Of a stretch of 64,000 nucleotides of DNA, positions 18,885-27,600 are shown one piece after another. The stretch comes from Marinobacter koreensis. GTDB lineage: Bacteria > Pseudomonadota > Gammaproteobacteria > Pseudomonadales > Oleiphilaceae. The number at the start of each line of letters is the position of its first letter. The stretch's first letter is position 1. The position numbers and the translations under genes are program-made. The DNA lies in NCBI RefSeq assembly GCF_023156285.1, contig NZ_JAKZAJ010000002.1:124001-188000 (forward strand), written 5' to 3'. Below the pieces are notes generated by a model. That model saw only the letters and a program-made list of their open reading frames with translations, was not told the origin of the DNA and did not search any database.

Positions 18885-20327
18885 TCAGCCTCCCGGCCCA
18901 CATTCCAGGCACCCCTCGGCAGGCGACGGCCCGATGGCAAGATTCCGGTTCAGGTCTTTAAGTGCGGTTCGGAGACCCTCCTCAATAACCGGATGATAAA
19001 ACGGCATATCCAGCATCTCGCTGACCGTCATACGTTTCTGAGCGCACCAGGCCAGAAGGTGACCGATATGCTCCGCTGCCGGGCCGAACATTTCGGCTCC
19101 CATGAACAGACCGCTGCCGTGTTCGCCATAGACCTTTAACAGGCCCCGGTTCTTGCCCACTACGCGGGCCCGGCCCTGCTCCGCAAAAGACACCTCCCCT
19201 ACGGCAAAGCATCCCTGGCATCGTTCTCGCACCTGGTCCACCGTCAGGCCGACCGTGGCTATCTGCGGGTCGGTAAACACGACCGCCAGCGGTGTACGCC
19301 TCAGTCCGGTACGCACATCCGGCCAGCGGGCGGCGTTGGTTCCGGCAATCCGCCCCTCATCGGCGGCTTCATGAAGCAGGGGTTTGTCATGGTTGGCGTC
19401 CCCGGCAATAAAGATGTGACTGTCGCCACACCGCAGTGTGTAGGGATCAAATATCGGCGAGCCGTTCGTATCAAGTTCGATATCCGCGTTCTGGATGTCG
19501 AGGTCGTCGACATTGGGGCGACGCCCCGTTGCAGCGAGCAGATACTCGAACGTTTCCGTAATAGTCTCGCCGTCGGAATCGCGGAACGTCACCCGCACCC
19601 CGGAGGCGTCGCGGGATACGCCACTGACCTCGGACGATGGATCCAGAGGAAACTCCTGATTGAACGTTTCCAGGGCACAGGCGCGGATCGCCTCGTCGCG
19701 TATGGGCCCCACCGGGCCGCCGACACCAAACATCCGGACCCGAACACCCAGCCGGCTCAGCGCCTGTCCCAATTCGAGCCCTATGACACCGGGACCAAAC
19801 ACGACCACCGATTCGGGCAGATCGGTCCAGTCGAAGATATCGTCATTGACCACAAGACGGTCTCCCGCCTCCCGAAGCATCTTCGGGATGTTCGGCCGGG
19901 CACCGGTCGCAATGACGATCCGGTCGGCAACAACCTCCACCGCGTCACCCACGATCAGACGATGGGGTGCGATGAACCGGGCATGCCCCATCAGCCGGTG
20001 TGATTCGGGAAAGGACTCCACGGTCTTGACCACCGACCCGGCAAACCGGTCGCGCTCCCGACGAACGCGATCCATGACAGCTCTGCCATCAATGGTCATG
20101 GCGTCTGCACGAATACCGAACGCTTCACCCTGACGCATGGCGTCGGCATGGTCAGCGGCGGCAATCAGCAGTTTGCTGGGCATACAGCCCACACGTGCAC
20201 AGGTGGTGCCATAGCGGTCACCTTCGATCAGAACCACCCGGTCGGTAAGCTTGCGTACGCTCTGATAGGCCACCATTCCCGCCGTGCCGGCTCCGATGAT
20301 CGCCACATCCACTTCTCGCTTTTCCAC
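18885..20327 (-). CDS. Dihydrolipoamide-dehydrogenase-like flavoprotein disulfide reductase
   Basis: 480 residues. The FAD motif AIIGAGTAGMVAYQ opens the protein; the redox disulfide is TTCARVGCMPSK (Cys43, Cys48), and the NAD motif is VVFGPGVIGLELGQAL. The C-terminal interface His-Glu dyad is kept in YHPVIEEGLRTAL. This fits class I pyridine nucleotide-disulfide oxidoreductases. It is not next to any 2-oxo acid dehydrogenase gene, so a housekeeping role as the E3 subunit is unlikely; mercuric-reductase-like or thiol/quinone reduction are alternatives. The tail carries an extra CLEC motif near the end, uncommon in lipoamide dehydrogenases. Confidence 0.8.
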   Translation of the reverse strand: MEKREVDVAIIGAGTAGMVAYQSVRKLTDRVVLIEGDRYGTTCARVGCMPSKLLIAAADHADAMRQGEAFGIRADAMTIDGRAVMDRVRRERDRFAGSVVKTVESFPESHRLMGHARFIAPHRLIVGDAVEVVADRIVIATGARPNIPKMLREAGDRLVVNDDIFDWTDLPESVVVFGPGVIGLELGQALSRLGVRVRMFGVGGPVGPIRDEAIRACALETFNQEFPLDPSSEVSGVSRDASGVRVTFRDSDGETITETFEYLLAATGRRPNVDDLDIQNADIELDTNGSPIFDPYTLRCGDSHIFIAGDANHDKPLLHEAADEGRIAGTNAARWPDVRTGLRRTPLAVVFTDPQIATVGLTVDQVRERCQGCFAVGEVSFAEQGRARVVGKNRGLLKVYGEHGSGLFMGAEMFGPAAEHIGHLLAWCAQKRMTVSEMLDMPFYHPVIEEGLRTALKDLNRNLAIGPSPAEGCLECGPGG

Positions 20328-20507
20328 CCTGCGCCTCCTGATCCGACGTATGGCCGGTTCACTGTAGAATGTTCCCTCGAGGATTCAGTATAGAGGTTCC
20401 GGCCCGGTTGTCGTAAAGCCGGGGTCGTTGAGGCGGGGCAGACAGCGGAGCTGAAATCACATACCCTTTGCTACTGCAACAGGAAAGCCCGACGCGGAGC
20501 CCATTCG

Positions 20508-21179
20508 ATGACCCAGTACTGGCCGGAATTTCTGACAATTGTCGTCGCCCATCTGCTGGCTGTCGTCAGCCCGGGGCCGGATTTTGCGGTCATGCTGCGC
20601 CAGGCATTGTGCCAGACACGGAGAAATGCACTGCTGAGCGCCGCGGGCGTGGGGGCCGGCATCCTGGTGCATGTGACCTATTCACTGCTGGGTATCGGCT
20701 GGCTGATCCAGCAATCGATCGTCCTGTTCACCGCACTGAAAATCGTCGGTGCCCTGTATCTCGGCTGGATTGCGATCCAGTGCCTGCGCGCCCGGGCCGG
20801 TAGCATCCACGTGGAAACCTCCTCCGGCCCCGAACAGTCCGCTCTGGCCGCCTTTCGACTGGGTTTTCTGACCAACGCACTGAATCCGAAAGCGACCCTG
20901 TTTTTCGTCGCGCTTTTTTCTGTCGTGATCAGCCCCGGAACACCACTGATGATTCAGGCCGGTTATGGGGTCTACATGGCCCTTGCCACCGGTGTCTGGT
21001 TCTCTCTGGTGGCGGTGTTCTTCACACTGCCTCGTGTACGCCAGGCCTTTGGCCGCTTCGGACACTGGCTCGACCGGATCATGGGCAGTCTGCTGCTCCT
21101 GCTGGCGGCCGAACTCCTGTTCTCTACAGTGACCGAATCAGAGCCTCTGTCTGCGACCACCCCAGGCACGGATCGGTAA
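20508..21179 (+). CDS. LysE/RhtB-family amino acid exporter
   Basis: 223 residues with about six membrane helices. The N-terminal signature HLLAVVSPGPDFAVMLRQAL is diagnostic of the LysE/RhtB family, and GFLTNALNPKATLFFVALF is the second conserved block. These proteins export amino acids or their derivatives (homoserine, threonine, lysine and others); the substrate cannot be read from sequence. Its last 56 bp overlap, on the opposite strand, the end of the DAHP synthase gene. Confidence 0.88.
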   Translation: MTQYWPEFLTIVVAHLLAVVSPGPDFAVMLRQALCQTRRNALLSAAGVGAGILVHVTYSLLGIGWLIQQSIVLFTALKIVGALYLGWIAIQCLRARAGSIHVETSSGPEQSALAAFRLGFLTNALNPKATLFFVALFSVVISPGTPLMIQAGYGVYMALATGVWFSLVAVFFTLPRVRQAFGRFGHWLDRIMGSLLLLLAAELLFSTVTESEPLSATTPGTDR

Positions 21180-22176
21180 TCGAGCAGCCATAGACCAGGT
21201 CAGGGCCATCGTTCTGACGCCCCGGCTCCAGGAAGCTTTCGAGCATCAGGCCTCGGATGTGGTCATTGCCGGCCAGGCGCTGGGCCATCACCTCCCGGGC
21301 AATGTCGATCTGGCGCTCGGCCTGTTTGCGGGCGTTATCGTGGCTGCAGTCCACCATCACGCTGGTCGACAGGCCCGCGGAGGTCAACTCATCCACGGTC
21401 CGGGCAATACTGTCGGCATCGTAGTTGGTGATCCCCCGGCCACCGCGGAGTACAAGATGGGTGTCCGGATTGCCCCGGGTCGAGATCATCACCGGAGCAC
21501 CGCTGGCCGAAACCCCCAGATGATGGTGCGGATGCCCCGCCGATTTCATGGCGTTGGTCGCCACCCCGATGCTGCCATCGGTGCCATTCTTGAATCCCAC
21601 CGGCATGGGCAGACCGCTGACCATTTCCCGGTGAACCTGGGATTCCGTCGTCCGTGCCCCGATCGCCGTCCAGCTGACAAGGTCACCCAGGTAGTCCATC
21701 ACCAGCGGACTCAGTGCTTCTGTGGCCAGCGGCAGGCCCAGACCCGCCAGCTCCAGCAACAGCAACCGGGAGCGCCGGAGTCCCTGCTCAATGTCACCCT
21801 GACCATTGCGCTCCGGATCGTAAAGCAACCCCTTCCAGCCAACCGTCGTTCGCGGCTTTTCAAGGTAGGCCCGCATCACGATCAGGCAACGGTCCTTGAC
21901 CTCGTCTGCCAGTGCCTTCAGTTTGCGGCCATACTCCAGGGCAGCCTGTTCGTCGTGGATGGAACAGGGCCCCATAACGATCAGCATCCGCGTGTCACGC
22001 CCCTGCAAAATGGCCCGGATGGCGTCCCGTTGGGCGCCTATCCGGGCCATCAGGTCCAGACTGGCAGGATATTCGCGGCGGAGCTGTTCAGGCGATGGCA
22101 ATGCCCTCTCCTTCCTGTGACAACTGGCCGCGGCGAGTCCCTCGTTCAGTGTTTCGGCGCTGACTGGCATGTTCAT
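21124..22176 (-). CDS. 3-deoxy-7-phosphoheptulonate (DAHP) synthase, AroAI-alpha type
   Basis: Condenses phosphoenolpyruvate and erythrose-4-phosphate, the first step of aromatic amino acid synthesis. 350 residues, the size of E. coli AroF/G/H. Conserved blocks: VMGPCSIHD (metal Cys), RAYLEKPRTTVGWKG, IGARTTESQVHRE, GFKNGTDGS, and VDCSHDNARKQ. The start at 22176 is preceded by GGGAA; an in-frame codon at 22209 would fall inside the attenuator. An aromatic leader gene and a terminator lie directly upstream, so expression should follow charged tRNA levels. Which isozyme (Phe-, Tyr- or Trp-inhibited) is not clear from sequence alone. Confidence 0.93.
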   Translation of the reverse strand: MNMPVSAETLNEGLAAASCHRKERALPSPEQLRREYPASLDLMARIGAQRDAIRAILQGRDTRMLIVMGPCSIHDEQAALEYGRKLKALADEVKDRCLIVMRAYLEKPRTTVGWKGLLYDPERNGQGDIEQGLRRSRLLLLELAGLGLPLATEALSPLVMDYLGDLVSWTAIGARTTESQVHREMVSGLPMPVGFKNGTDGSIGVATNAMKSAGHPHHHLGVSASGAPVMISTRGNPDTHLVLRGGRGITNYDADSIARTVDELTSAGLSTSVMVDCSHDNARKQAERQIDIAREVMAQRLAGNDHIRGLMLESFLEPGRQNDGPDLVYGCSITDPCLGWSQTEALIRSL

Positions 22177-22208
22177 AGCGTGGTTCCCGTTTCCCTGTAT
22201 CAGAATCA

Positions 22209-22246
22209 AAAAAGCCCCGGCTGGGCTACCAGTCGGGGCTTTTTGA
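22209..22246 (-). terminator. Attenuator terminator in front of DAHP synthase
   Basis: On the minus strand AGCCCCGACTGG pairs with CCAGCCGGGGCT (one mismatch, TAGC loop) and is followed by TTTTTT. It lies 33 bp before the DAHP synthase start and downstream of the leader peptide gene, the position expected of a transcription attenuator. Two further stems precede it: TCGGAC/GTCCGA at the leader stop codon and GGCAGCC/GGCTGCC. The segment CCGGGCCGCC right after the aromatic codons can also pair with GGCAGCCCGG (one mismatch), giving mutually exclusive folds. Confidence 0.85.
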
Positions 22247-22299
22247 GTCCGGTGGCAGCCTGGGTGTCTGCCGGGCTGCCTTCCTCGTTATGTTTCGGA

Positions 22300-22446
22300 C
22301 TAAGCGTCCGATAGGCGGCCCGGGTTCTGGCTAAAATAAAAGCCATAACCAAACCACCAAAAAAACACAGCAGCGACCGCCGCCGGCCTGATCGGGCCGA
22401 AAGCTTGCGAAAGATTGAATTGACAGGTCGCGCTCGAAATATTCAT
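22300..22446 (-). CDS. Aromatic-rich leader peptide of the DAHP synthase gene
   Basis: A 48-residue open frame (ATG at 22446, TAG at 22300) too short for standard gene calling. Residues 27-38 read VFFWWFGYGFYF: five Phe, two Trp and two Tyr in twelve codons. The N-terminal half is unremarkable (MNISSATCQFNLSQAF...). GGAGAG immediately precedes the ATG. Ribosome stalling at these codons when Phe, Tyr or Trp is scarce would keep the following RNA from forming the terminator at 22246-22209. The mixed composition suggests response to all three aromatic amino acids. It has no other expected function; the peptide itself is probably not used. Confidence 0.85.
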   Translation of the reverse strand: MNISSATCQFNLSQAFGPIRPAAVAAVFFWWFGYGFYFSQNPGRLSDA

Positions 22447-22453
22447 GCTCTCC

Positions 22454-22483
22454 ACTATATACCCCCGGTTTCAGGCTTGGCAA
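22454..22483 (-). promoter_or_regulatory. Candidate promoter of the aromatic leader
   Basis: On the minus strand TTGCCA (22483-22478) and TATAGT (22459-22454) are 18 nt apart, a good sigma-70 match. The start point would fall at or within a few bases of the leader ATG, implying an almost leaderless transcript. The divergent gene starting at 22529 shares this region. Confidence 0.5.
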
Positions 22484-22528
22484 CCTGCTGCCCAGACTTT
22501 TTGCAGACGTTCTTTACCCGGAGACCCC

Positions 22529-23326
22529 ATGAATCGAACCGCGTTCCCCCAATTGAGGCTTTTTCTGGTCCTGATAATGACGGTTCCTCTGTGGCTGGTG
22601 GCAACGAGCGCACAGGCGCAAACCGAAACCCGGGTCTATCAGCTGACTGCGCGTACCGGAGAAGACGTCGCTACACAGATTCGCGACCTTTACCAGGACA
22701 GTCAGATCACGGTAACAGCGAGGGGACAGCAACTGGTTGTCCGCGGCGAACCCAGACTGCTTGACGAGATCGGAACCCTGGTCCAGTCCCTGGATGTCGC
22801 CCCGGCGCAAATCCGGATCACGGTTCGAACCCGGGAAGACATCGGCGGCAAGCAGTCCGGCGGAGGCGTCAGCGGCAACGACAAATCGCTGCGCATCGAG
22901 GCGCAGAACAAGGTCATCTCTACGGCTAACCAGGCGGAGCGGACCGTCATCGTACAGGACGGCCAGACGGCCCAGATCACCTCCGGTCAGGTGCGGACTC
23001 TGCCCTTCGCCATCCGCGGCGGCCGGAACCCGGCCACCATCCTCGAACAGGTCAAGACGCATTCCGGTTTCCTGGTCAGCCCTCAGGTCATCTCGGACCA
23101 GACCGTTGAACTGAACATTGTGTCGTTCGAGGAGGATCCGGCCCAGATCCAGGGCTATGAAACCGAGGCCCTGCTGACGATTCGGCGTGTGGAACCCGGA
23201 CATTGGGTGTCGCTCGGAAGCGTCGGCACACACACTGAGACTGACAGCAGCAACATCACCTACACGGTGAAGAGCAATCAATCCCGAAGCCGCATCGTCG
23301 ACGTCAAGGTGGATATCCTCCGGTGA
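22529..23326 (+). CDS. Periplasmic secretin-N-domain-like (NolW-like) protein
   Basis: 265 residues with a Sec signal ending near TSAQA-QTETRVYQL (about residue 30). The mature N-terminus (RTGEDVATQIRDLYQDSQITVTARGQQLVVRG... LVQSLDVAPAQI) has the fold pattern of the secretin short domain found in GspD and PilQ. No beta-barrel secretin domain follows; the C-terminal part is instead a set of strands ending IVDVKVDIL. It is therefore not a channel, and its role is unknown. I start at the ATG preceded by CGGAGACCCC, not the upstream in-frame ATG. It is divergent from the aromatic leader. Confidence 0.65.
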   Translation: MNRTAFPQLRLFLVLIMTVPLWLVATSAQAQTETRVYQLTARTGEDVATQIRDLYQDSQITVTARGQQLVVRGEPRLLDEIGTLVQSLDVAPAQIRITVRTREDIGGKQSGGGVSGNDKSLRIEAQNKVISTANQAERTVIVQDGQTAQITSGQVRTLPFAIRGGRNPATILEQVKTHSGFLVSPQVISDQTVELNIVSFEEDPAQIQGYETEALLTIRRVEPGHWVSLGSVGTHTETDSSNITYTVKSNQSRSRIVDVKVDILR

Positions 23327-23462
23327 TTGACGACCCGACTAATCTCCTGCCTCCACGCTCTCGTAATTCTGTCACTTGAAGAAGTTACGATACCCGGCCA
23401 AAACAGTAACGAGAATTACTCACAAACGGGTGACAAACCGTCATCAGTTTTTATAGGATGCT

Positions 23463-23510
23463 ATGTTTCGTGAACTTCGTTTAATGATCGAACTCAACAG
23501 CCCCGCCTGA
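23463..23510 (+). CDS. Possible 15-codon leader open frame before the RND operon
   Basis: ATG at 23463 with AGGA 5 nt upstream, coding MFRELRLMIELNSPA, then TGA. The stop codon lies inside the 5' arm of the hairpin at 23505-23539. Spacing and ribosome site make translation plausible, but a peptide this short may be chance. Confidence 0.3.
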   Translation: MFRELRLMIELNSPA

Positions 23511-23539
23511 ACAGACCGTCCACACTGTTTTGTTCAGGC
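23505..23539 (+). promoter_or_regulatory. Hairpin in the 5' leader of the RND efflux operon
   Basis: GCCTGAACA (23505-23513) and TGTTCAGGC (23531-23539) pair perfectly over 9 bp, with extra ACAG/CTGT complementarity in the loop. It ends 35 bp before the adaptor start. It could be an RNA structure or a dyad operator for a TetR/MarR-type regulator; no T-run follows, so it is not a terminator. Confidence 0.5.
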
Positions 23540-23574
23540 ACACTCACATGGATACGGACTCCAGGATATTCATT

Positions 23575-24678
23575 ATGCGTACTGCCTCCCGCTTCGTGAT
23601 TGTCATCATTCTCCTTGGCGTCGTCCTTGGCGGCATTTTCGGGTACAAGTTCTACCAGTTCGGACAGATGAAGGAAAAGATGTCCCAACCTCAGCCGCCG
23701 ACCGCCATTTCCGCTACCGATGCAAAAGTCGAGCGCTGGACCCCCAGCATCAAAGCCGTAGGCAGTATTGAGGCGGTCAACGGCGTCCAGGTCGCCAACG
23801 AGGTCCCCGGGGTGATCCAGAGCATTGAATTCGAGTCCGGCGATACCGTCAAAGAGGGCGACATCCTGATCCGGCTGAATTCCGAGATCGACGAAGCCGC
23901 CCTGCGCACCCGTCGCGCCGAAGCCCAGCTCGCGCAACAGGAGTTCAAGCGGGTGTCCGACCTGCTCCCGAAGCGGGCGGTATCGCAGTCGCAGTACGAC
24001 GAGGCAAAGGCAAACTATGATGCCGCTCGCGCGAGGGTGAACGAGGCGGAAGCGCAGCTTGGCAAGAAGGTGATCCGGGCCCCGTTCGACGGCAGACTGG
24101 GGATCCGTACGGTGGATCAGGGTGAATACATTCCCACCGGCACCCCCATCGTTGAAGTCAACATGCTTGATCCGATCTACGTGGATTACACCCTCTCCGA
24201 GAAAAACCTGCCCCATGTCGCCACGGGCTATCCGGTGGTTGCGACAGTGGCCGCTGTTCCGGACATGGCCTTCAACGGCAAAGTCAGTGCGATCAACACC
24301 TCGGTGAATCCGCAGACCCGTACGGTCCGTATCCGCGCGACCCTGAGCAACCCGGACAATCTCCTCCGGCCCGGCATGTTCGCGACTATCCAGACTGAGC
24401 AACCCGACCAGGAAGAGGTTGTTACCGTGCCCCGCACCGCCATCTCCTACAACACTTACGGCGATTTCGTCTTTGCCGTCGAGAAGGACGACAACGGCGA
24501 TCTGGTGGTCAAGCGGCGCACCGTGACCACCGGCCAGACCCGGGACGGTCGCGTGGCGGTTCTGTCCGGACTGGAGGCTGGCGAGACCGTGGTTTCCAAA
24601 GGTCTGCTGAGACTCCGCGCCGGCCAGAAGGTCCAGATTCAGGAAGCAAAAGACAACACGCAGGGGGCGTCTGAGTAA
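23575..24678 (+). CDS. RND efflux periplasmic adaptor (membrane fusion protein)
   Basis: 367 residues from the ATG with AGGA 9 nt upstream. A membrane anchor (about 6-25) is followed by the lipoyl half-motif (VKAVGSIEAVNGVQV, GVIQSIEFESGDTVKEGDIL), a helical hairpin of Ala/Arg-rich repeats, the second lipoyl half (KKVIRAPFDGRLGIRTVDQGEYI) and beta-barrel (DYTLSEKNL, NPQTRTVRIRATL) domains. It links the inner-membrane pump to an outer-membrane channel, which is not encoded nearby, so a TolC elsewhere is likely. Its TAA overlaps the ATG of the pump. Confidence 0.9.
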   Translation: MRTASRFVIVIILLGVVLGGIFGYKFYQFGQMKEKMSQPQPPTAISATDAKVERWTPSIKAVGSIEAVNGVQVANEVPGVIQSIEFESGDTVKEGDILIRLNSEIDEAALRTRRAEAQLAQQEFKRVSDLLPKRAVSQSQYDEAKANYDAARARVNEAEAQLGKKVIRAPFDGRLGIRTVDQGEYIPTGTPIVEVNMLDPIYVDYTLSEKNLPHVATGYPVVATVAAVPDMAFNGKVSAINTSVNPQTRTVRIRATLSNPDNLLRPGMFATIQTEQPDQEEVVTVPRTAISYNTYGDFVFAVEKDDNGDLVVKRRTVTTGQTRDGRVAVLSGLEAGETVVSKGLLRLRAGQKVQIQEAKDNTQGASE

Positions 24679-27600
24679 TGCGGTTTACCGACATTTTCGT
24701 CCGCCGCCCCGTCCTTGCGACGGTGGTGAGCCTGCTGATCCTCCTGATCGGTGCACGGGCCGCCATGGAAATGGAGATCCGGCAGTATCCCGAACTGGAG
24801 AGTACAACCGTAACGGTTACCACGGCTTATCCGGGCGCCAGCTCTGACCTGATCAAGGGCTTTATCACCACGCCTCTGCAACAGGCCATTGCCGAAGCCA
24901 GCGGCATTGACTACCTGACCTCCACCAGTTCACAGGGGACGTCGAAGATTGAAGCGCACATGCAGCTCAACTACGACGCCAACGCTGCCCTGGCCGAGAT
25001 CCAGGCGAAGGTCGCCAGTCAACGCAACGTCCTGCCCGCTCAGGCCCAGGATCCGATCATTGAGTCGTCCACCGGCGATTCCACGGCATTGATGTACATT
25101 GCCTTCTACAGTGAAGAACTGGCGGTTCCCCAGATCACCGATTACCTGACCCGGGTGGTACAGCCCAAACTGCAGGCCCTGTCCGGGGTGGGCAAGGCCC
25201 GACTAATCGGCCGGCAGTTTGCCCTGCGGGTATGGCTCGATCCTGAGCGTCTGGCCGCGGTCAATCTCACGCCCACGGAAGTGGCCGCCAAGCTTCGCGC
25301 CAACAACTATCAGGCCGCGGTCGGCAACACCAAGGGCCAGTATGTCGAGGTCGCCATGACCAGCGACACCGATGTGGCTGATCCCGACAACTTCCGCAAC
25401 CTCGTGGTCAAGACCCAGGACGGCACCCAGATTCGCCTTCAGGACATTGCCCGGGTGGAACTGGGCTCGGAAAGCTACAACGAACTGGCCCTGTACAAGG
25501 GCAAGCCGGCCACCTATGTCGCCATCGAGCTGGCACCGGGTGCCAACCCACTGACCGTCGCCAATCTGGTCAAGGGCGCCCTGCCGGACATCGAAAGCCA
25601 GCTGCCCTCCGGACTGGATGTCCGTCTGGCCTATGACGCCTCGGACTTCATCCAGGATTCCATTGACGAAGTCATCAAGACCCTGGCCGAGGCATTGATC
25701 ATCGTCCTTGTGGTGGTGTTCCTGTGCCTGGGCTCGGTCCGCGCTTCGGTAGTACCCTCGGTCGCGGTTCCGCTGTCCCTGATCGGGGGCGCGTTCGTGA
25801 TGCTGATGTTCGGCTTCTCGCTGAACCTGCTCACACTGCTGTCGATGGTCCTGGCAATCGGCCTTGTGGTCGACGACGCCATCATCATCGTCGAGAACGT
25901 GCACCGACACATCGAAGAGGGTGAGTCGAAGTTCCAGGCCGCCCTCCACGGTGCCCGTGAAATGGCGACTCCGATCATTGCCATGACGACCACGCTGGTC
26001 GCGGTTTATGCGCCCATCGGCTTTATGGGCGGCCTGGTCGGTTCGCTGTTTACCGAATTCGCGTTTACGCTGGCCGGGACCGTGGTGATCTCGGGGATTG
26101 TCGCCCTGACCCTGTCCCCCATGCTGTCCGGCAAGGTGCTGAAACCCCATGGCAGCTCTGGCCGTTTCGAGCAGGTCGTCGAGCGCACCTTCAATGGTCT
26201 CTCCAGTGGTTATAAATCGGCACTCAGCTCGCTGATGCAGACCAAATCGGTCGTGTTCTTTTTCGCCGCCGTCGTGCTCGGTTCCATTTACTTCATGGTC
26301 AACATGAGCCAGAAGGAACTGGCACCCACGGAAGACCAGGGCATCCTGTTCTACCAGGGCCTGGGCCCACAGACCGCCACTCTGGATTACCTGCGGGAAA
26401 ACGGGGACGAGATCCAGCAACGTATGTCCAAACTGCCGGGGTACAACGAGGACTTCATGGTCATCGGCTTCACCGGCCCGAATGCGGTGTTCGGCGGTTA
26501 CAAGATGAAGCCCTGGAGTGAGCGGGATGTCAGTCAGTTCGAGGTCCAGCCCATTCTCAACGCCGAGCTGAAAAAGGTGACCGGCCTGCAGACGGCGGTG
26601 TTCCCGAGGCCCTCCCTCCCGGGTTCCGGCGGTGGTCTGCCGTTCCAGTTCGTGATTACCACAGGCAACAGCTATGACCAGCTGAACCAGGCGGCCGACC
26701 AACTGCTGGGCAAGGCCATGGGCAGCGGCAACTTCCTGTTCCTGCAGAAGTCCATCAACTTCGACAAACCGGTCACCCGGATCCATGTCGACCGCGACCG
26801 GGTCGCGGACCTCGGGCTGTCCATGCAGGACATTGGCCAGGCACTGGCCAGCATGCTGGGTGGGGGCTACATCAACCGCTTCAGCATGGAAGGCCGGTCG
26901 TACAAGGTGATTCCCCAGGTGGATCAGAAATTCCGTCTGGATGAACAGGCCCTGAACGACTACTACGTCCGCAGCGGCAATGGCGAACTGGTCCCGCTGG
27001 GAAGCGTGGTCAGCTTTAGCCGTGACGTCGAACCGTCGAACCGCACGCAGTTCAACCAGCTCAACTCGCTGACCCTTCAGGGCGTAGTCAAGCCGGGTGT
27101 CGCCATGGGCAGTGCCATGGATTACATGGAACAGGCAGCCAAAGACACGCTGCCCCAGGGGTATAGTTACGACTACACCGGCCAGACCCGCCAGCAGGCA
27201 AATCAGGGCAACGCCCTGATGGTGACCTTTTTCCTGTCCCTGCTGGTGATCTATCTGGTTCTGGCGGCACAGTTCGAGAGCTGGCGTGATCCCCTGATCA
27301 TTCTGGTCTCGGTCCCGATGTCAGTCGCAGGTGCCATGTCGTTCATCGTCCTGGGCTTCGCGTCCATGAACATCTATACCCAGGTGGGCCTGATTACGCT
27401 GATCGGCGTGGTGTCGAAAAACGGCATCCTGATCGTTGAATTTGCCAACCTCCTGCAGAAGCAGCGGGGGCTGAGCAAAGTCGAGGCGGTGATCGAGGCA
27501 GCAGCTATCCGGCTGCGCCCCATTATCATGACCTCGCTCGCACTGATCGTTGCCATGGTCCCGCTGTTGATTGCCATCGGCGCGGGTGCGGAAAGCCGGT

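Follow-up and report, generated by a model that had tools for sequence, protein, structure and literature searches.

The DNA analysed here, a stretch of 64 kb from Marinobacter koreensis to which we refer as the window, encodes on its minus strand a class I DAHP synthase (3-deoxy-7-phosphoheptulonate synthase, AroFGH type; 21124-22176, start ATG at 22176). The protein scores over the cut-offs of NCBIfam TIGR00034 (aroFGH; 428.8 bits) and Pfam PF00793 (253.9 bits), and by this enzyme the closest named genome among the best 80 of 279 confirmed DAHP synthase loci is that of Marinobacter santoriniensis, at 98% identity. Upstream of the gene, on the same strand, are found an intrinsic terminator, a short leader ORF and a sigma-70-type promoter. 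The divergent neighbor on the plus strand (22529-23323, about 265 amino acids) matches Secretin_N over the cut-off and Secretin below it. A second DAHP synthase paralogue in the same genome (contig C3:526141-527124, upstream stretch L125) is 54% identical and has no such leader.

The leader ORF, MNISSATCQFNLSQAFGPIRPAAVAAVFFWWFGYGFYFSQNPGRLSDA (22300-22446, minus strand), spans 48 codons from the ATG at 22446 to a TAG at 22302-22300. Its codons 27-38, VFFWWFGYGFYF (22333-22368, minus strand), hold nine aromatic residues in twelve codons (five Phe, two Trp and two Tyr), and in all these respects the frame was found just as the first-pass annotation had claimed. In the six frames of the 64 kb, nine aromatic residues occur in two of 97,090 stop-free 12-codon stretches, and the VFFWWFGYGFYF locus is the only place in the window with at least seven; in ten mononucleotide shuffles of the window, none of 857,140 such stretches exceeded seven. 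No family model matched the leaders over its cut-off. The promoter (22454-22483, minus strand) combines the -35 hexamer TTGCCA (22483-22478) with the -10 hexamer TATAGT (22459-22454), and from their position transcription is expected to start at about 22447, adjoining the AUG. The terminator, GCCCCGACTGG-TAGC-CCAGCCGGGGC-TTTTTT (22208-22239, minus strand), lies between the leader ORF and DAHP synthase and consists of a stem (22239-22229/22224-22214), a loop (22228-22225) and a T-run (22213-22208); it had previously been placed at 22246-22209, and is present with these adjusted borders.

From the aromatic run to the terminator, five segments on the minus strand make up a switch that the first-pass annotation did not contain. 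Segment 1, GGTGGTTTGG (22349-22358), lies within the codons W W F G and pairs with segment 2, CCGGGCCGCC (22314-22323), which starts just past the aromatic run, covers the codons P G R and part of L, and can pair with segment 1 or segment 3. Segment 3, GGCAGCCCGG (22271-22280), pairs with segment 2 or 4, and segment 4, GGCTGCCA (22253-22260), with segment 3 or 5. Segment 5, TGGTAGCC (22224-22231), the antiterminator partner of segment 4, is composed of the end of the terminator's 5' arm, the loop and the first base of the 3' arm. One state combines 1:2 and 3:4 with the terminator, the other 2:3 with 4:5, and the 4:5 pairing and the terminator are mutually exclusive. We also considered a scheme of the trp type, in which segment 2 would pair straight to the terminator arm, and gave it up when inspection by eye revealed no complementarity between the two.

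Partition-function calculations on RNA reaching up to segment 5 were used to examine this choice. With a ribosome placed on the aromatic codons, 2:3 forms with a probability of 0.85-0.88 and 4:5 with 0.94-0.97, while 3:4 is reduced to 0.02-0.04; covering segment 2 instead raises 3:4 to 0.86-0.87 and lowers 4:5 to 0.05-0.06. RNA ending at the terminator's 5' arm shows no switch in its folding, which appears once the terminator tip is included. When segment 1 is left free and the terminator is incomplete, 4:5 still stands at 0.88-0.89 and 1:2 at only 0.14-0.29, so that masking segment 1 adds little at equilibrium, and for an untranslated leader early termination is not predicted while the 3' arm is still missing. 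With that arm complete, the terminator state prevails in the calculation at every ribosome position, and 4:5 falls to 0.00; hence the choice between 4:5 and the terminator must be kinetic.

How well is this anatomy conserved? All of the best 80 of 279 confirmed DAHP synthase loci are labelled Marinobacter, and in 79 of these 80 the leader is intact and in frame with its aromatic run. The remaining locus, L040, lies on a contig that begins 26 nt upstream of the gene and was excluded from all leader counts; the 80 Marinobacter leaders counted in the following are therefore these 79 loci and the window. The usual peptide is close to MKTTHATCQLNVLQAFG...AAVAAVFFWWFGYGFYFSQSPGRP and varies in length by whole codons (GYGYF, WWFFG), with 44 or 45 codons in 77 of the 80 leaders from this best-80 set. 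In the consensus of the 80-row alignment of the same set, of which 27 rows were inspected, the terminator and the pairing stretches are nearly invariant; in L027, L048, L050 and L061 the terminator was not placed. The alignment of orthologues that the first-pass annotation had suggested as a check thus bears it out with respect to both the aromatic run and the terminator. Its two short stems after the ORF fared unequally. The second (22280-22274/22260-22254) is conserved and forms one arm of the switch, whereas the first, the stem TCGGAC/GTCCGA (22311-22295) that surrounds the leader stop codon, is peculiar to the window and, in weaker form, L001 among the 27 aligned rows inspected. Likewise, the last three codons of the window frame (S D A) are shared with L001 alone among the best 80 of 279 loci. 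Since both features are confined to the window and L001, we place them outside the common machine.

The promoter is part of the conserved arrangement. All 80 Marinobacter leaders have their best -10-like hexamer (TATATT, TATAGT or TATGAT, with five of six matches) ending 6-7 nt upstream of the ATG, and the -35 element resembles TTGCCA or TTGCAA, with a spacer of 18 in 77 of the 80. A Shine-Dalgarno-like motif occurs in one of the 80 leaders, that of the window itself, where it is positioned before the expected start of the mRNA. To judge from this spacing, the Marinobacter leader mRNA is probably leaderless.

Leaders of this kind extend beyond Marinobacter. Reading 25 further DAHP synthase loci of the order (L100-L124) revealed an aromatic leader in 15 and none in 10; nine of the 15 are the same genes as loci of the Rfam family P15 discussed below. 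One of these loci, L119, has a far shorter run, GWWFTYFKS, with a terminator tip, GGCAGC, complementary to an upstream GCTGCC, and is perhaps a minimal or independent version of the attenuator. Among 28 new class-wide loci (L193-L220) we found one leader of the P15 type (L193) and one of a different, Tyr-rich kind (L209); four more had five or six aromatic residues in ten codons and looked like chance frames. The leader-like frame of L209, MRPTYFSYYRYYRYTYFM, lies before a DAHP synthase gene in another gammaproteobacterial family, is rich in Tyr and Phe, and has no Trp. As a control, we inspected the upstream regions of 20 other DAHP synthase genes, 18 of them second copies in leader-bearing genomes including that of the window, and found such a leader in none. 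For 12 of the 20 the gene piece was too short for tblastn anchoring, and the entire stretch was scanned instead. Sense-strand aromatic stretches do occur in two control regions: L131, with six in ten codons inside an open frame of 142 codons, and L140, with five in ten within 26 codons that lack an ATG.

The Rfam family RF00627, Pseudomonas sRNA P15, provides a link to a previously catalogued element. The window scores 23.8 bits against this model, below its gathering score of 70, and a search of 19 relatives, including the window's own genome, gave no match; no Marinobacter genome matched among those searched. The Marinobacter version appears too diverged for the model, and the link is accordingly made through the sub-threshold match together with the shared position. 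Matches were found in 14 of 194 sampled genomes of the order, with DAHP synthase at all 14 loci, and in 41 of 59 genomes of the family of G105 and 37 of 46 of the family of G091. Among the 81 distinct P15 places listed, 62 loci were retrieved, and DAHP synthase was found at every one. In each of these 62 loci an aromatic leader containing F, W and Y is the 5'-most dense ATG frame (at least five aromatics in ten codons). A pattern-based count gave all three residues in 61 of 61 loci, a figure that is partly circular, given that the pattern itself demands Y and W; the locus left out of that set, L187, has a leader that reads GFWF and so missed the pattern. In the 61 pattern-recognised loci the distance from the leader stop to the gene downstream is 99-338 nt. 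GGAG-like motifs precede the ATG of P15-type leaders (read by eye, uncounted).

The window element shares with P15 its place before DAHP synthase, its aromatic leader and the order of its segments and terminator, and we regard it as the syntenic counterpart of P15 and not as a filed member. It differs from the Rfam entry in that the consensus structure of RF00627 shows the terminator without the 2:3/4:5 alternative, and Rfam files P15 as an sRNA gene. A second small ORF, rich in Tyr and Arg and with an RF(S/T/N) motif, mostly as WRF (e.g., MNTTYYRYYRNSDWRFSSALRATQRALPRTLR), is found downstream of the attenuator in 40 of the 61 P15-type loci; all 40 belong to the 48 loci whose leader and gene are over 190 nt apart. 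Examples between the terminator and DAHP synthase are L081-L087, L089 and L145-L160, with similar frames in L079 and L104; no terminator was noticed after this ORF, and no family model matched it over the cut-off.

To what extent do the pairings hold up across lineages? In a duplex-energy test on 22 leaders (three from Marinobacter and 19 others; L066, with its differing terminator, was left out), the energy of each leader's duplex with its own partner segment was compared with that of duplexes with the partners of other leaders, a permutation in which additive effects of base composition cancel. For 4:5 the own partner gave -17.66 kcal/mol against -15.05 for the others, and for 2:3 -22.49 against -19.76, with 0 of 5000 permutations as extreme in either case; the own partner was the single best in just three of 22 leaders for 4:5 and one of 22 for 2:3, with mean ranks of 6.7 and 6.6. 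Because many of the 22 leaders are related, the test was rerun on thinned sets. With 14 less related leaders, 0 of 20000 permutations matched the value for 4:5 and one of 20000 that for 2:3; with the ten leaders left after removal of the P15 core group, the numbers were 8 and 6 of 20000, respectively. The complementarity of 2:3 and of 4:5 is thus lineage-specific across the 22 leaders.

In all 22 leaders the terminator tip pairs more with upstream RNA once segment 2 is freed (one a tie to two decimals); the mean is 0.77 with segment 2 free, against 0.37 under masking and 0.59 for shuffled leader tails. Tip pairing lies above that of the shuffled tails in 20 of the 22; L104 and L119 do not exceed the shuffles, and L120, L093 and L094 show almost no contrast on freeing segment 2. 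An antiterminator that excludes the terminator therefore exists and is conserved, with these five leaders as exceptions.

A further comparison used an alignment of 41 P15-type leaders, some trimmed, picked by eye for variety from 52 references, a list that excludes L093 and identical cores. Here, 94.6% of cells in the 2:3 plus 4:5 state are paired, and the covariation of 0.118 stands against 0.070 in shuffled controls (0 of 500 as high) and at most 0.047 in slid versions, values to be read with the pairing columns set by eye and with the fact that kinship alone can exceed such shuffles. Two of five measures for this state are weak, the doubly changed pairs being reached by 24 of 500 shuffles and the further pair types by 119 of 500. 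The state with 1:2, 3:4 and the terminator is paired in 91.0% of cells, with a covariation of 0.056 (0.038 in shuffles, 0 of 500 as high), and its further pair types were reached by 160 of 500 shuffles. The pairs, named by alignment column, that often fail among the 41 leaders are 68:114, a 4:5 pair (15 failures), 52:66 (12), 4:32 (17) and 5:31 (15).

The marks of an attenuator, namely a short ORF with codons for the end products, a terminator before the gene and a conserved antiterminator, are found together at this locus. We propose that it is very probably a ribosome-mediated transcription attenuator of DAHP synthase that senses phenylalanine, tyrosine and tryptophan together, and that it works as follows. 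RNA polymerase would start at or next to the leader AUG, with a ribosome following. A shortage of any one of the three charged tRNAs would stall the ribosome on FFWWFGYGFYF, where it would occupy segment 1 without reaching segment 2; 2:3 would then pair and leave segment 4 to pair with the nascent terminator tip, segment 5. With 4:5 formed, the terminator would not arise and DAHP synthase would be transcribed. When aromatic amino acids are plentiful, the ribosome would reach the stop codon and cover segment 2, allowing 3:4 and the terminator to form and releasing a short RNA of about 240 nt. Ribosome-mediated attenuation had been suggested for this locus in the first-pass annotation, and the leader kept in 79 of the best 80 of 279 loci, the terminator, and the conserved, mutually exclusive antiterminator all support that reading.

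Does the ribosome respond to all three amino acids? It is conceivable that the attenuator is real yet effectively senses a single aromatic amino acid, with the other codons kept by RNA pairing or carried along as passengers. RNA pairing may hold the codons W W F G in place, since segment 1 sits in them, and Phe is the commonest aromatic residue across Marinobacter leaders; moreover, the accessible part of PMC11802643 reports that the aroR leader of Corynebacterium glutamicum has Phe-Tyr-Phe and is nevertheless without response to Tyr availability. The location of the W codons within segment 1 also means that part of their conservation in Marinobacter may stem from the RNA, and selection on the RNA and on the amino acid are inseparable there. 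The wider sample argues for joint sensing: codons for F, W and Y occur together in 80 of 80 Marinobacter leaders (from the best 80 of 279 loci), in every one of the 62 P15-type leaders and in all ten divergent leaders chosen by aromatic density, with the position of W varying among the last, and F and Y are equally frequent (156 each) in the last 20 residues of 61 P15-type leaders. We therefore regard a single sensed amino acid as unlikely, if well worth keeping in mind, and consider that all three probably count. No TrpR was found in ten Marinobacter genomes by a search in which the E. coli control was positive; the presence of trpR, on which regulation of DAHP synthase of the E. coli type would depend, was thus not observed in these ten.

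The short RNA expected from termination might itself be a regulator acting in trans, as the Rfam name implies. Released RNA of this kind is anticipated by our model, Livny et al. had detected P15 among the sRNAs of P. aeruginosa, according to the accessible part of PMC2375449, a study that did not itself recover P15, and attenuator-derived RNAs can act in trans, as described for rnTrpL of Sinorhizobium meliloti in the available text of PMC7298713. Yet the occurrence of DAHP synthase at 62 of 62 loci, the in-frame aromatic ORF and the lineage-covarying pairings are all explained by a switch in cis, and we consider a small RNA made for action in trans very unlikely. All 62 loci have an aromatic leader and, downstream of it, DAHP synthase; the RNA filed as 'sRNA P15' is accordingly most plausibly the transcript that the attenuator of this leader releases upon termination.

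The N-terminal part of the Marinobacter peptide raises a different question. The block Cys-Gln-Leu-Asn-Val is strongly conserved at a distance from the aromatic codons. In arrest of the TnaC kind, the nascent peptide itself helps the ribosome to sense a free aromatic amino acid, and a conserved block of this sort would fit such a mechanism. That mechanism would have the wrong sign, since ribosomes stalled by an excess would turn the enzyme on; furthermore, the block is not seen in the P15-type leaders inspected, and its invariance extends to synonymous sites (TGT in 79 of 80, CAA in 80 of 80 and AAT in 76 of 80), which points to DNA or RNA. We judge arrest by the nascent peptide to be highly improbable. 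The corresponding block CTGTCAATTGAATGTT (22428-22411, codons 7-12) is almost invariant in Marinobacter, with a variant in the window. It was considered as an operator and is single-copy in eight of 14 genomes, all of them Marinobacter (eight of the ten Marinobacter searched); placement of the copy at the leader by coordinates was made for that of G005 only. Finally, a metabolite riboswitch, suggested by a structured 5' region with a terminator at its end and guessed for P15 from synteny (PMC2527527, as far as its accessible text goes), can be set aside as having next to no likelihood, since an Rfam scan of 20000-25000 with E up to 5 returned no riboswitch family (TPP or other) and the aromatic ORF, which shares sequence with segments 1 and 2, is kept as a reading frame.

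The ribosome-mediated attenuator that we favor has well-known relatives. In trpL, pheL and hisL of enterobacteria the position of the ribosome chooses between alternative hairpins, and the enterobacterial his attenuator has the order A:B, C:D and E:F against B:C and D:E, which is the order found in the window leader. Unlike these systems, the window leader combines three amino acids at the common first step, the counterpart of segment E is mostly terminator loop, and initiation in Marinobacter is predicted to be leaderless. At a DAHP synthase gene, the aroR leader of the aroF operon of Corynebacterium glutamicum was reportedly described by Neshat et al. in 2014. As presented in the accessible portion of PMC11802643, aroR is a leader-peptide attenuator that responds to Phe and not to Tyr. 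It resembles the present case in its attenuation before a DAHP synthase gene by stalling on aromatic codons, and differs in its Phe-Tyr-Phe run and its phylum, where here Phe, Trp and Tyr are kept (a comparison by description and not by sequence). Likewise, the uORFC-13-1 motif upstream of aroF in Acholeplasma, proposed as an attenuator from its sequence (PMC8632094, in the part available), has an upstream ORF with one or more Phe codons and a terminator beside a DAHP synthase gene; it belongs to a distant host group, and only at least one Phe codon is given for it. For aroF of E. coli attenuation has also been hypothesised, and a listing gives it for Shewanella, in the accessible passages of PMC8632094 and PMC2659441, and the main text of a survey of premature terminators (PMC2965389) contains neither aroF nor DAHP. 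In the portion of the open-licence PMC literature that was covered, we found neither P15 nor this leader described as an aromatic attenuator.

The first-pass annotation had called a leader sensing all three aromatic amino acids at the common first step unusual. This holds for the joint retention of Phe, Trp and Tyr codons and not for leader attenuation of a DAHP synthase as such, which is already on record for Corynebacterium and proposed in Acholeplasma. Because attenuation by a DAHP synthase leader is known from aroR, the element is a widespread instance of a known mechanism, ribosome-mediated attenuation, with an uncommon target and with all three aromatic codons kept.

A bolder reading can be built on these comparisons. 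The attenuator RNA of S. meliloti, rnTrpL, begins at the leader-peptide AUG, as would the Marinobacter RNA; there, Trp is the only amino acid involved, trpE(G) is the target and functions in trans have been demonstrated for rnTrpL and the peptide peTrpL, according to the available text of PMC7298713. We speculate, with considerable doubt, that the leader forms a joint OR gate of tRNA-Phe, tRNA-Trp and tRNA-Tyr charging across much of the Pseudomonadales, replacing repression of the TrpR type, and that in addition the leaderless Marinobacter RNA with its near-invariant N-terminal codons acts in trans in the manner of rnTrpL/peTrpL.

What would the attenuator mean for these bacteria? Rfam P15 would be recast from an sRNA into the terminated product of a cis-acting attenuator and would gain an explicit antiterminator, which a model of the terminated state leaves out. 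DAHP synthase is a usual target in strains engineered for aromatics, and removal of the attenuator would therefore be an obvious lever in such hosts. The model offers a testable account of control at the first step of aromatic synthesis in bacteria whose sampled Marinobacter members are without TrpR.
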